Shown in pieces: positions 20,926 to 25,495 of a stretch of 64,000 nucleotides of DNA; the first letter of the stretch is position 1, and each line of letters begins with the position of its first letter. Under the pieces are notes generated by a model. The model saw only the letters and a list, made by a program, of their open reading frames with translations. It ran no database searches and was not told the DNA's origin. The stretch spans positions 1-64,000 of the forward strand of contig NZ_CP018799.1 of NCBI RefSeq assembly GCF_002795805.1. The letters are read 5' to 3'. This stretch comes from Mariprofundus aestuarium (lineage in GTDB: Bacteria > Pseudomonadota > Zetaproteobacteria > Mariprofundales > Mariprofundaceae). Position numbers and translations under genes: made by a program.

Positions 20926-21744
20926 TCAGTTGCTTTCGGCACGCGCTTCTGACGACCAGAAGCTCCACGCCATGCCAATGGTGGCCGAAATGTAATTTTT
21001 ATCTTTTACCAGTGGGCTGTTTACGATCACGCCCGGAGATAGGTTACGGTAACGGATCGCCGAAAAGAGAGAAATCGAGTCGCTGTACTGGTAGCGCAAG
21101 CTGGTCGTGAGCGACAATGAATGAAGCCCTGCACCTGCCCTGTAGGCTGGCCTTGCCGCTGTGGCATAGACCGGTGCTACACCGTAATAGGTATTGTGAA
21201 ACCCCTGAGAGCCGTAAAGAAGCCCCGCTGCAAGCGTCACTTTCATTATTTCACTGGCCTGATGCTCCAGCAGAAGATCGGGTTCCGATACCCAGCCCAG
21301 CCAACTGCCGGAAGTATTAATGACGCCGCGCCACGGTAACCTGAGCGTCAGCTTGGTTTGCTCATCTTCAAGCAGCCTCCAGTTCAGTCTCGGGCCAAGC
21401 TGGAAGCTAAACTTGAGGTCAGGCATACCGGCTCTTGCCCGGTTGGAGTTGCGAACCGGCAATCCAAATCCGAGTGAGAGATCCAGGTTGAGGTCCTTGA
21501 ATCCAAGCAGTTCACGCCTGATCCCAGAGCGGTCAATTTTAAGTCGATTGCCACGATAGATCAGATAGGGAATAGGAGCGCCAAAGAGATAGCGTTCATT
21601 GCTTCCCATGTAGTGTGGCAGGCTGGCCACACCAGCTGCGATGCCAACCTCCCAGAGCGGTTTGCCCGATGATTCGGTGGCGGTGGCAGCGTTTGCTGGT
21701 AGCAGCAGGCCGGGCAGAAGGATTGCGATCATTGAGCGCTTCAT
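20926..21744 (-). CDS. MipA/OmpV-family outer-membrane protein
   Basis: The 272-residue product has a signal peptide (cleavage near ANAATA, about residue 20-22). A beta-strand-rich barrel pattern follows with WEVGIAAGVASLPHYMGS near the mature N-terminus, the standard MipA/OmpV opening. The alternating hydrophobic pattern runs to the end, ending in a strand with WSFW. MipA was named as a scaffold for murein enzymes, but family members vary in role. It converges on the hypothetical gene with a 4-nt gap. Confidence 0.85.
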   Translation of the reverse strand: MKRSMIAILLPGLLLPANAATATESSGKPLWEVGIAAGVASLPHYMGSNERYLFGAPIPYLIYRGNRLKIDRSGIRRELLGFKDLNLDLSLGFGLPVRNSNRARAGMPDLKFSFQLGPRLNWRLLEDEQTKLTLRLPWRGVINTSGSWLGWVSEPDLLLEHQASEIMKVTLAAGLLYGSQGFHNTYYGVAPVYATAARPAYRAGAGLHSLSLTTSLRYQYSDSISLFSAIRYRNLSPGVIVNSPLVKDKNYISATIGMAWSFWSSEARAESN

Positions 21745-21820
21745 GAGTACGGATGATATACGCCTTGCCGATGATGAATAGTAGTTTCAACAGTCGGGTA
21801 GAGGCGTTACGCTGGCCACT

Positions 21821-22504
21821 ATGCGGATATGGGATGTGAATCCAGGCTATCTGGCCCGGCAGCAGTTGCTCGGTGAGCACCGGGAGCTGCACGGGCTTTT
21901 CAATGTTCTTACCATGGGCAAGAAGGGTTATGCCAATCATCCTGAGACGCTTCGCTGGGTTGGCTGCATCAGTGCGCTTACGATACGGCATCGGCAACTT
22001 ACGGCTGAGATGCAGTTGCGCGGTTACAACCACCACTCGCCTTTGCCTGATATTGCCGGTGCCGCGGCATGGCCCAACATATTTATCGATACCCTTGCCC
22101 ACCAGTTCGAACTGCTGGCTGGTAAATATGCCGCTGACGGGAGATCTGGCCGAATTCCGCTGCCTATGAACTGCCAGGAGCTCTGGGCCCAGCATAAATA
22201 TTCGGTGATGGCACACGATCCCAACCTTTATCGTGAGCTTGGCCCAGCTGTGGCGCATGGGGGGGAATACCATGACAATATTGAGGCGCTATCAACCCTG
22301 CTGATCAGAACACTCAGAAGTGAGCCTGAGCCGGGACACCTGATGAATGCACTGCAGCATATGTGGGGTTATTTGAAAGGTGAAACATCTCCGCCGCAGT
22401 CCCCCTCTGCACTGCTTGAAGCGATTCAGGCTGCTGCCATCAAACGTGACACGACTTACCTTATAAATTCCACTGCCCTTTCCGAGTTGGCGGTGTGGCT
22501 CTAG
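21821..22504 (+). CDS. Fusion of pyrimidine-dimer DNA glycosylase-like domain and DUF1722
   Basis: The 227-residue protein looks like two joined domains. Residues 1-95 (MRIWDVNPGYLARQQLLGEH, then RELHGLFNVL and GKKGYANHPETLRWVG) match the Pyr_excise family named after T4 endonuclease V. From memory of the T4 sequence, R21-E22 align with R22 and catalytic E23, while the catalytic N-terminal Thr is absent. Residues 117-226 (ELWAQHKYSVMAHDPNLYRE, then NALQHMWGYLKG) match DUF1722, the domain of YbgA/RudS. In RudS, DUF1722 is joined to a DUF523/TudS domain; here TudS is the next gene, 9 nt away. The likely role is in the UV response. Glycosylase activity is uncertain. Confidence 0.8.
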   Translation: MRIWDVNPGYLARQQLLGEHRELHGLFNVLTMGKKGYANHPETLRWVGCISALTIRHRQLTAEMQLRGYNHHSPLPDIAGAAAWPNIFIDTLAHQFELLAGKYAADGRSGRIPLPMNCQELWAQHKYSVMAHDPNLYRELGPAVAHGGEYHDNIEALSTLLIRTLRSEPEPGHLMNALQHMWGYLKGETSPPQSPSALLEAIQAAAIKRDTTYLINSTALSELAVWL

Positions 22505-22513
22505 GTTGAAGCG

Positions 22514-22984
22514 ATGCAGAAAATACTTGTAAGCGCTTGCCTGCTTGGTGAGAGGGTCCGTTATGATGGCGGTGACTGCCGTCAGTCAGGCCTTCTTAAG
22601 CAGTGGCAGGATGAAGGGCGATTGATTCCGATTTGCCCAGAGGTGGCCGGTGGCCTTCCGGTGCCAAGACCGCCGGCTGAGATTGTCACGGGTGATTCAG
22701 ATGCCGTGTTATGTGGCTGCGGAGTAGTGCAGCGACAAAGTGGTGAGGATGTGACCGATGCCTTTGTCGATGGAGCGGAACTGGCTCTTGCCCAGTGCAT
22801 GCGCCACCACATCAAGCTGGCAGTGCTGAAAGAGGGCAGCCCATCCTGCGGCGTTTCATATGTGAATGATGGAACGTTCTCAGGCGTTAAGATCAAAGGT
22901 GAGGGCATTACTGCCAGACTGTTGAAGCGCCATGGCATAAGGGTGTTCAGTGAGTTTGAAGTGGATAAGCTTAAATTACGCTGA
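22514..22984 (+). CDS. tudS: TudS-type (DUF523) [4Fe-4S] thiouracil/thiouridine desulfidase
   Basis: DUF523 proteins of the TudS family carry a labile [4Fe-4S] cluster that removes sulfur from thiouracil; fused to DUF1722 (RudS) they remove sulfur from 4-thiouridine in tRNA. The 156-residue product has the three conserved cysteine contexts: SACLLG (C9), ICPEVAGG (C41) and EGSPSCG (C112). It also has the VRYDGG and RPPAEI blocks. There is no DUF1722 part here; that domain is in the gene just upstream. The two probably work as a split RudS-like pair. Confidence 0.85.
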   Translation: MQKILVSACLLGERVRYDGGDCRQSGLLKQWQDEGRLIPICPEVAGGLPVPRPPAEIVTGDSDAVLCGCGVVQRQSGEDVTDAFVDGAELALAQCMRHHIKLAVLKEGSPSCGVSYVNDGTFSGVKIKGEGITARLLKRHGIRVFSEFEVDKLKLR

Positions 22985-23054: not shown

Positions 23055-23507
23055 ATGAAACTGATGGATGTTGTTGTGCCCACCGGCGTTGTGCTTCCGG
23101 GCATGAAAATCGGGGATGCGTTCCGCGAGTGTACGATTCATAACGTGGGCGGCCTGCCCTACTGCAATGCCGAGGGAAATATCGTCGGCCGGTTCTCGCT
23201 TCGGCATACCTTCAAATGCCTCTGTGTTCCTGACGACATGGCCCATCACGCTCACCTTCTCGGCGACAGGATCTGCAGTGAGAGTACGCCGGAGGTGGTC
23301 AGCGGTGAGATCCTGAATATGACGGTTGACCGCTACATTATCGAAAATGTTGCGACCATCACCCCCTCCTCCCCGGTGATCAAGGCGCTCTCCATCATGG
23401 AGAAGTTCAATTCCAACTATATATTCCTGCTCGACGGGGAGCGCTATGTCGGAGTGATAACGCGCATGGCGATTGCCGGCCTGCTGCTCAAATATCATAA
23501 ATTCTGA
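23055..23507 (+). CDS. CBS-domain pair protein
   Basis: The 150-residue soluble protein has two CBS-like halves. The first covers MKLMDVVVP to GNIVGRFSLRH and the second IIENVATITPSSPVIKALSI to GVITRMAIAG. CBS pairs bind adenine nucleotides and act as regulatory sensors. AGGAG lies upstream of the start. The gene ends 2 nt before the permease gene, so regulation of that transporter is a fair inference. Confidence 0.8.
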   Translation: MKLMDVVVPTGVVLPGMKIGDAFRECTIHNVGGLPYCNAEGNIVGRFSLRHTFKCLCVPDDMAHHAHLLGDRICSESTPEVVSGEILNMTVDRYIIENVATITPSSPVIKALSIMEKFNSNYIFLLDGERYVGVITRMAIAGLLLKYHKF

Positions 23508-23509
23508 TT

Positions 23510-24823
23510 ATGGTTGAATATTCCAATATGCTGACTACAGATATGTTGATCGCTCTGGCTGTAATGTTCGGGGCCTATGTCTTGATCTTCAGCGAGATAC
23601 TGCATCGCACCAGCGCCGCCATTATCGGCGCCGTGGTGATGATCGGGGTTGGTACCGCAGCAGGGTTCTATTCGCAGGATATGGCGATTGAGGCCATCGA
23701 TGGTAATACGATACTGCTGCTTACGGCGATGATGATGGTTGTGGCAAGGCTACGCCCGACCGGCGCCTTCGACTACATCGCTATCATGCTTTCCAAGTTT
23801 TCCAATGGTGATTCGAGGCTGCTGCTGATCTATCTCAGTCTGGCGGTAAGTATGATCAGTATGTTCCTCGATAATGTAACCACGGTAATCATCTTTGCCC
23901 CGATCACGGTGCTGATTGCCCGTATCCTTCAGATCAATCCACTGCCATTCCTGATGGCTGAGGCGATGCTCTCCAATATCGGCGGTGCAGCCACACTGGT
24001 CGGCGATCCCCCCAACCTTATGATCGGCACTGCAGGTGGCATCGATTTTAACCGCTTCCTCATTCACATGGGCCCTACTATTTTTCTGGTCTGGTTCTGC
24101 ACGGTGTTGTTGATTCTTTTTGTATTCCGTAGCTACCTCATTAAGGTTGAGAATCACATCGACCTGAATGAAAAGAAGGCCATTCGCGACCCCAGGGCAT
24201 TGATACAGGCATGTTTCGCCCTTGCTGTGATTATCGTGCTGTTTTTCCTGCATCACCATCTCCACCTCTATCCCGCCTATGTCGCATTTATTGGCCTCTG
24301 CATCGTACTTGTGCTGCAGCGGCCCGAGCCCAGCGTCCTGTTCGGGCAGGTGAACTGGTCGGTGCTCGCCTTCTTTGTCGGCCTGTTCATTATTGTCGGT
24401 GGCGTGGACAGCTCCGGGCTGTTGCGCTGGGTTGGCCTGCAACTTGTCGATATCGCCCGTGACCCGGAAAGGTTGATGCTGACAGGACTTGTAGTGATGT
24501 GGTGCGCTGCACTGTTGAGCGCGATCATCGATAACATTCCCTTCACGGTTACAATTATTCCGATCATTTTGGGGCTGGAAACGATGGGTGTTAATATCAC
24601 CCCGCTGTGGTGGGCGCTTGCGATTGGCGTTGGCCTTGGCGGCAACGGCACGCATATAGGGGCGACGGCCAACCTGATCGCAATCGCCGAATCGGAGCGC
24701 TGCGGAATTAAAGGGGCCGCTATTACGCCGGCCGGATGGATGAAGGTGGGTATTCCCACGATGTTTTTCAGTCTGATGATTGCCAGCATCGCCTATTCAC
24801 TTTTCTTCTCCACATTCTTATAG
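23510..24823 (+). CDS. ArsB/NhaD-type ion permease (SLC13-like, IT superfamily)
   Basis: The 437-residue inner-membrane protein has about 11-12 hydrophobic segments. Conserved blocks of the ArsB/P-protein branch are NVTTVIIFAPITVLIAR, SNIGGAATLVGDPPNLMIG and GGNGTHIGATANLIAIAES. These Asn/Gly/Pro-rich re-entrant motifs occur in the first and second halves of NhaD, ArsB and citrate transporter families. The substrate could be sodium/proton, arsenite or a di-/tricarboxylate; no ars genes are nearby, so I do not assign one. An ATG at 23528 is an alternative start. Confidence 0.85.
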   Translation: MVEYSNMLTTDMLIALAVMFGAYVLIFSEILHRTSAAIIGAVVMIGVGTAAGFYSQDMAIEAIDGNTILLLTAMMMVVARLRPTGAFDYIAIMLSKFSNGDSRLLLIYLSLAVSMISMFLDNVTTVIIFAPITVLIARILQINPLPFLMAEAMLSNIGGAATLVGDPPNLMIGTAGGIDFNRFLIHMGPTIFLVWFCTVLLILFVFRSYLIKVENHIDLNEKKAIRDPRALIQACFALAVIIVLFFLHHHLHLYPAYVAFIGLCIVLVLQRPEPSVLFGQVNWSVLAFFVGLFIIVGGVDSSGLLRWVGLQLVDIARDPERLMLTGLVVMWCAALLSAIIDNIPFTVTIIPIILGLETMGVNITPLWWALAIGVGLGGNGTHIGATANLIAIAESERCGIKGAAITPAGWMKVGIPTMFFSLMIASIAYSLFFSTFL

Positions 24824-24832
24824 GTGGCATAT

Positions 24833-25495
24833 ATGGCAAACCGCACGATTAACATGAACGAAAAACTTTACGAATACCTGCTTGAGATGGGGCTGCGTGA
24901 ACCGGAAGTGCTGGCTCGCCTGAGGCATGCGACCGAGGCTGAGGAGCTCTCTATCATGCGCTCTGCCCCTGAGCAGTGCCAGTTGATGGCAATGCTGATT
25001 CAGCTGACGGGTGCAAAGCGGGTGATCGAGGTTGGCACCTACACCGGTTATGCGACGCTCTGGATGGCGCTGGCCTTGCCTGATGATGGTGAGATCGTGA
25101 CCTGTGATGTCTCAGAGCGCTGGAGCTTTGTCGCCCGGAGATTCTGGGAGGATGCGGGCGTGCAGGATAAGGTTCAGCTTTACCTGCGCCCTGCCCTTGA
25201 AACACTCGATGAGCTACTGGAGTGCGATGAGGAGGAGAGCTTCGATTTCGCCTTTATTGATGCGGATAAAGAGAACTATGATCACTACTATGAGCGCTGC
25301 CTGAAGCTGCTTCGACCGGGCGGTTTGATGGTGGTTGATAATGTGCTGTGGGGTGGCAGTGTGATTGATAATAGCAACTGTACTGCAGCAACGGAGGCGA
25401 TTCGCATATTCAACAGTAAACTGAAGGTGGACGCACGCATCGACCTGGTCATGCTGCCTGTAGCAGACGGGGTGACACTGCTCATTAAGCGCTGA
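24833..25495 (+). CDS. Class I SAM-dependent O-methyltransferase (caffeoyl-CoA/catechol type)
   Basis: The protein has the motifs of the divalent-metal-dependent O-methyltransferase family: VIEVGTYTGYATLWMALALP for SAM binding, and FDFAFIDADKENYDHYYERC with metal-binding Asp residues. VVDNVLWGGSV follows. The start at 24833 (220 residues) is favoured because AGGTGG lies 5 bases before it; an in-frame GTG at 24824 would add three residues. The substrate is unknown; bacterial relatives act on catechols or other small phenolics. It follows the permease gene closely. Confidence 0.88.
   Translation: MANRTINMNEKLYEYLLEMGLREPEVLARLRHATEAEELSIMRSAPEQCQLMAMLIQLTGAKRVIEVGTYTGYATLWMALALPDDGEIVTCDVSERWSFVARRFWEDAGVQDKVQLYLRPALETLDELLECDEEESFDFAFIDADKENYDHYYERCLKLLRPGGLMVVDNVLWGGSVIDNSNCTAATEAIRIFNSKLKVDARIDLVMLPVADGVTLLIKR

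Follow-up and report, generated by a model that had tools for sequence, protein, structure and literature searches.

Background

Light-independent glycosylases for pyrimidine dimers are most familiar from phages, algal viruses, and a small number of bacteria. In T4 endonuclease V (DenV), the nucleophile is a backbone alpha-amine, and removal of the initiator methionine exposes Thr2. More generally, lyases of this kind use a primary amine as their nucleophile, for instance the N-terminal alpha-amine (PMC12499884).

RudS removes 4-thiouridine (s4U) from tRNA and contacts the tRNA with R24-Y25-N26. Its DUF1722 domain helps to bind tRNA, which is the only experimental role of DUF1722. RudS genes are often in light-responsive operons with photolyases, and the authors raise the speculative possibility that some species carry a split RudS (PMC11417400). 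Stand-alone TudS recycles 4-thio-UMP, which it prefers, and there is no evidence that it acts on tRNA (PMC10611767).

A predicted dimer glycosylase fused to DUF1722

We analyzed the first 64,000 nucleotides (bases 1-64000, "the window") of the 2,537,610-base single contig of Mariprofundus aestuarium. A gene on the + strand (21821..22504) encodes a protein of 227 amino acids with two Pfam domains, both above their cut-offs. PF03013 (Pyr_excise) matches residues 1-75 at 93.1 bits (cut-off 23, E = 1.4e-26), and these residues cover the profile except for its final 2 positions, so the T4 endonuclease V-like domain that had been recognized from the sequence alone is present. PF08349 (DUF1722) matches residues 126-193 at 52.1 bits (cut-off 22.5, E = 9.6e-14). 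After a gap of 9 nt from the stop codon of the fusion to the next ATG (22505..22513, + strand), there is a stand-alone TudS gene (DUF523; 22514..22984, + strand; PF04463, 154 bits, E = 2.7e-45). The sequence-only reading was correct about both open reading frames, their coordinates and domains, and the spacing between them.

The AlphaFold2 model of the fusion, for which 81 sequences were aligned, is confident along its whole length (mean pLDDT 95.9). It has helices at residues 13-32, 50-66, and 92-106 of the core, and the helices of DUF1722 begin at residue 118. When the model was compared to the PDB with Foldseek, the top match was T4 endonuclease V (1eni with probability 0.99 and 2end with probability 0.98). 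For these two matches, the TM-scores normalized by the target were 0.55-0.58 and the E-values were weak (0.24 and 0.52). Among named viral proteins, the best match was the pyrimidine dimer glycosylase of the Chlorella virus (probability 1.00). Endonuclease V was recovered only by the fold search, and not by searches of PDB sequences with either the protein or the 81-row profile. From the Pfam match, the predicted helices, and the matches to 1eni and 2end, we infer that the core extends to residue 106 (residues 1-106; 21821..22138, + strand).

We assign residues 118-227 (22172..22501, + strand) to DUF1722, based on the Pfam hit and the alignment of the family. The core H-K and N-A-L-Q-H-x-x-G-Y motifs of DUF1722 are kept in this alignment, and the C-terminus is remodelled and ends in STALSEL..W. 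Because only positions 1-70 of the 117 positions in PF08349 are matched (the last 47 are not), the C-terminal third of the domain has diverged.

Predicted catalytic residues

An alignment to T4 DenV places Thr2-Arg3 and Arg22-Glu23 of the phage enzyme opposite Met1-Arg2 (21821..21826, + strand) and Arg21-Glu22 (21881..21886, + strand) of the fusion, with the same 21-residue spacing. The earlier identification of R21-E22 with the catalytic Arg-Glu pair therefore stands. Arginine after the initiator methionine should prevent its removal by methionine aminopeptidase, so Met1 should be retained in the mature protein, and its amine would occupy the position of the amine of Thr2. Judging from this alignment, the "missing" threonine is a one-residue register effect. 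Stand-alone cellular members of Pyr_excise also begin with Met-Arg-(Leu/Ile)-Trp. The sequence-only reading had suggested that the protein might bind damage rather than cut it, as the N-terminal threonine is absent, and the register of Met1 with Thr2 rules out this argument.

We scanned genomes with an alignment of ten members from the genus. At least 590 stretches matched and at least 445 of them encode a relative; we read the best 80. All 80 of these (the best 80 of at least 445) start at the same position as the fusion with methionine followed by arginine, and all 80 keep the Arg-Glu pair. Since the loci were searched for with the LGEHRELH pattern, part of its invariance comes from the search itself. 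In 61 of the same 80 relatives, there is no alternative in-frame start upstream. Arg26 of the T4 enzyme is replaced by Gly25 in the fusion, and the aromatic C-terminal tail has no counterpart in the alignment. We did not treat these two features as defining because cellular members of PF03013 lack them as well.

An old and widespread family

Both Pfam domains are present in 81 of 81 proteins (the window's protein and the best 80 of at least 445 relatives). The matches listed include Zetaproteobacteria, Desulfobulbaceae and other sulfate reducers, Gammaproteobacteria, Acidobacteria, Nitrospirota, Spirochaetaceae, Calditrichaeota, SAR324, and more. Full-length matches were found in 13 of 78 genomes from the window's class, and the fusion is encoded by 10 of 23 Mariprofundus genomes and by 36 of 193 genomes in our sample of one Desulfobulbia-type class. 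This is an old, widespread family that is neither local nor rare. None of the papers in the literature that we searched mentions both DUF1722 and pyrimidine dimers. The architecture is common and apparently undescribed in that literature; protein databases may already list it.

Pyr_excise domains also occur without DUF1722. Of 399 genomes sampled from the phylum, 46 have Pyr_excise, and the members outside of Zetaproteobacteria are mostly short stand-alone proteins. Viral contigs (L196-L208) encode short glycosylases of the LLGEHREL type, most of 108-121 amino acids, that lack DUF1722, so the core of the fusion does stand alone elsewhere. The C-termini of several of these viral proteins are rich in cysteine (KGCEC or CSHC, for example). 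In three loci from related Desulfobulbia-type genomes (L184, L185, and L186), the Pyr_excise half is intact and the DUF1722 half looks truncated or frameshifted, which suggests that the Pyr_excise half can be kept without the DUF1722 half. A gene with a metallo-beta-lactamase fold and a TudS gene lie downstream in these three loci, with the TudS about 1 kb from the fusion.

The adjoining TudS and the separate RudS

The TudS in the window matches the TudS of known structure (6z92; phmmer E = 8.4e-39), and its identity to RudS is about 31%. It keeps the three cluster cysteines C9, C41, and C112, as well as E43, S109, S111, and the phosphate-binding R16 (TudS_P numbering; PMC10611767), and it carries R16-Y17-D18 instead of the R-Y-N motif with which RudS contacts tRNA. 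TudS and DUF1722 are in separate chains at this locus, unlike in RudS. The same genome encodes a complete RudS elsewhere (G000:C1:672875-673771), which matches positions 1-117 of PF08349, unlike the fusion. A SOUL haem-binding gene directly follows this RudS (L001:847-2550, which is G000:C1:672767-674470).

Gene neighborhoods in Mariprofundus

The fusion lies in a slot that is bordered by PfkB/MipA on one side and by TudS and its downstream genes on the other. In the window, the left border is a divergent gene for a MipA-family outer membrane protein (20926..21744, - strand; PF06629 and synteny). Downstream of TudS, domain calls and synteny identify a CBS-domain protein, a CitMHS/ArsB-type transporter, and an O-methyltransferase (23055..25495, + strand). 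Some of the genes downstream of TudS persist in relatives that lack the fusion; in particular, TudS and its downstream methyltransferase are kept.

The contents of the slot vary. Upstream of TudS there is the fusion alone (the window, G012, and G004, and also G069 and G070 from another genus), the fusion and a lipocalin (G002), the fusion, RudS, and a lipocalin (G008 and G009), or a photolyase, RudS, and a lipocalin (G005). In G001, G003, G006, G007, G011, and G020-G022, the slot contains neither the fusion nor photolyase, RudS, or lipocalin. In several species (L128, L129, and L131), TudS is separated from RudS or from the fusion by a gene for a bacterial lipocalin. In six Mariprofundus slot loci, the next gene begins 9 nt past the stop codon of the fusion, regardless of whether it encodes TudS, lipocalin, or RudS.

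The fusion thus stands where photolyase stands in the slot upstream of TudS: it occupies the position before RudS in two species (G008/G009) that is taken by photolyase in G005. This exchange rests on the one species with photolyase in the slot. Across the 23 Mariprofundus genomes, ThiI domains are found in 22, TudS-family genes in 21, and class I photolyase in 6, and in all 6 genomes with photolyase it is directly upstream of RudS. We did not find a class I photolyase in the window's genome, which does contain ThiI. The fusion and photolyase are not significantly exclusive across the genus, as photolyase is present in 3 of 10 genomes with the fusion and in 3 of 13 without it.

The sequence-only reading had called for a comparison of neighbors, and the adjacency of the fusion and TudS is conserved in two genera. 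In a phylogenetic tree, the ten fusions from this lineage form one group (support 100/99), and fusion-TudS pairs are found on both sides of its first fork, which makes it probable that the adjacency is ancestral to both genera and was lost in G003 and G006. The fusions in G007/G019 and in G075 were probably acquired separately. The adjacency is real and is essentially confined to Zetaproteobacteria.

The sequence TACGCTG (21808..21814, + strand) lies about 7 nt 5' of the start of the fusion gene. It is nearly identical in six slot loci (the window and L004-L008), with TACCCTG in one of the six species, and we saw no Shine-Dalgarno sequence before the start of the fusion in these six loci. A consensus scan did not flag this element in the window. 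It may be the -10 element of a leaderless mRNA.

Gene neighborhoods outside of Zetaproteobacteria

In only one of 71 loci (L056) is a TudS-type gene within reach of the fusion, and it lies about 5.4 kb from the fusion on the opposite strand. A tally of the neighbors in about 70 loci revealed no conserved partner except for a short-chain dehydrogenase (SDR): the commonest upstream neighbor, present in 8 of the loci, is an SDR that carries Epimerase and DUF1731 domains (9 loci have the Epimerase domain). In a genome from another class (G603), RudS and a different SDR are encoded divergently from a stand-alone Pyr_excise gene. Within the sample of 193 genomes from one class, RudS is present in 4 of 36 genomes with the fusion as compared to 49 of 157 without it (P = 0.013, Fisher exact test), which is weak because these genomes are related to each other. 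Photolyase is clearly above the cut-off in just 3-5 genomes of the Desulfobulbia-type class sample.

A weakly ThiI-like protein (about 40-55 bits) is found in about 180 of the 193 genomes. It is a PP-loop protein of about 350 amino acids with a C-x-x-C motif (examples are L180:652-1713 and L181:94-1182). It is a candidate for an alternative s4U synthase, or it could be another tRNA thiolase.

Proposed function of the fusion

We propose that the fusion is a functional pyrimidine-dimer DNA glycosylase/AP lyase like T4 endonuclease V and that it serves as a light-independent substitute for photolyase within a UV gene set. We consider this full proposal to be reasonably likely. As it is spread over many phyla and is found in place of photolyase in one bacterial group, the fusion is probably an alternative UV-repair enzyme. 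The proposal draws on the computed fold, the order of the domains, the register of the residues, their conservation, and the photolyase exchange in one slot. From these we infer the retention of methionine, catalysis, the substrate, the role of DUF1722, and co-transcription.

In the proposed mechanism, the N-terminal alpha-amine of Met1 would attack C1' of the 5' base of the dimer. Glu22 would assist this attack, and Arg2 and Arg21 would have positioning roles. Beta-elimination would then nick the DNA strand. DUF1722 would replace the aromatic dimer-binding tail of the T4 enzyme as a module that holds nucleic acid. The fusion would belong to a near-UV/light-stress gene set whose usual members are photolyase and RudS, and it would be the light-independent stand-in for photolyase beside those genes. 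TudS would be an ordinary salvage enzyme for 4-thio-UMP that is co-transcribed with the fusion. It is the published properties of RudS (PMC11417400) and TudS (PMC10611767), along with the residues of the window's TudS, that lead us to read the fusion as a dimer glycosylase and TudS as a salvage enzyme.

The fusion represents a large cellular family, spread across many phyla, in which a dimer-glycosylase domain is joined to the one that assists RudS in binding tRNA. This suggests a wider role for DUF1722, which may serve UV responses as a general nucleic-acid module beyond the demodification of tRNA. The family offers a testable link between the repair of DNA photoproducts and the near-UV response of tRNA, and because it trades places with photolyase in one slot, a concrete prediction can be made about its function.

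Alternative explanations

The photoadduct that near-UV light forms in tRNA, s4U8-C13, is also a pyrimidine-pyrimidine adduct. The target of the fusion might then be tRNA: DUF1722 would hold the anticodon arm, the glycosylase fold would recognize this photoadduct and cleave or flag the tRNA that carries it, and TudS would salvage 4-thio-UMP from the products of tRNA decay. The tRNA-binding role of DUF1722 in RudS (PMC11417400), the recycling of 4-thio-UMP by stand-alone TudS (PMC10611767), which fits the adjacency in two genera, and the presence of ThiI in the window's genome are all consistent with this. However, the core agrees with DNA glycosylases in both fold and residues, and TudS is not a neighbor of the fusion outside of Zetaproteobacteria. 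Also, a strong match to ThiI is present in just 11 of 50 fusion-bearing genomes outside of Zetaproteobacteria and, for the Desulfobulbia-type class, in which RudS is nonetheless common, in 1 of 193. The scarcity of ThiI weakens this explanation because s4U in those bacteria would require another synthase. We view a tRNA target as unlikely.

The fusion might instead act on both targets. The endonuclease-V domain would excise dimers from DNA, DUF1722 would recruit the protein to s4U tRNA that was crosslinked by near-UV light, and TudS would recycle the thiolated nucleotide. This would physically join the responses to photodamage in DNA and tRNA, but we think that it is quite unlikely.

The sequence-only reading had proposed a split RudS: working in trans, the adjoining TudS and the DUF1722 of the fusion would together remove sulfur from s4U in tRNA. 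The 9-nt spacing, the adjacency in two genera, the two genomes that have the fusion and TudS and no RudS (G004 and G012), and the speculation that RudS has split in some species (PMC11417400) would fit. But the window's genome has a complete RudS, its TudS has R-Y-D and matches 6z92 at E = 8.4e-39 as against about 31% identity to RudS, many relatives have TudS without the fusion, and the fusion's DUF1722 lacks the last 47 positions of the profile. Furthermore, there is no evidence that the stand-alone TudS that was studied acts on tRNA (PMC10611767). The complete RudS, the TudS-type residues, and the persistence of TudS without the fusion rule this out as the main explanation, and overall we judge it to be very unlikely. 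What remains of the proposed link between DNA photoproducts and s4U is that a pyrimidine-dimer-glycosylase fold is tied to s4U and UV genes (photolyase is beside RudS in 6 of 6 genomes). The original observation is confirmed, and its interpretation is partly supported.

Finally, a damage sensor that binds photoproducts without cutting would fit the loss of the aromatic tail and of a counterpart to Arg26. It is very unlikely, however, as Met1, Arg2, Arg21, and Glu22 do not vary between phyla (in the best 80 of at least 445 relatives) and binding alone would not demand this.

Comparison to known systems

The proposed dimer glycosylase is most like T4 endonuclease V (DenV, PF03013; 1eni and 2end), with which it shares the fold, the N-terminal register, and a start without any extension. 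Arg3, Arg22, and Glu23 of the T4 enzyme have equivalents in Arg2, Arg21, and Glu22. The fusion differs in having an N-terminal methionine in place of threonine and an additional DUF1722 domain, and in lacking the equivalent of Arg26 and the aromatic tail. The stand-alone cellular Pyr_excise proteins (the MRLW...WREALLAQ type, about 145 amino acids) share the Met-Arg-(Leu/Ile)-Trp start and the Arg-Glu motif with the fusion, but they have no DUF1722 and their second half is different. Unlike theirs, the core of the fusion is of the LLGEHREL type that is common to phage proteins.

RudS has in common with the fusion the core motifs of DUF1722 and, in this genus, the neighborhoods with UV genes and photolyase. 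In contrast to RudS, the fusion has no desulfidase domain and the C-terminus of its DUF1722 has diverged, and a true RudS is encoded separately in the same genome. The window's TudS shares the cluster and catalytic residues and the phosphate-contacting arginine with TudS (6z92), and there is no notable difference between them.
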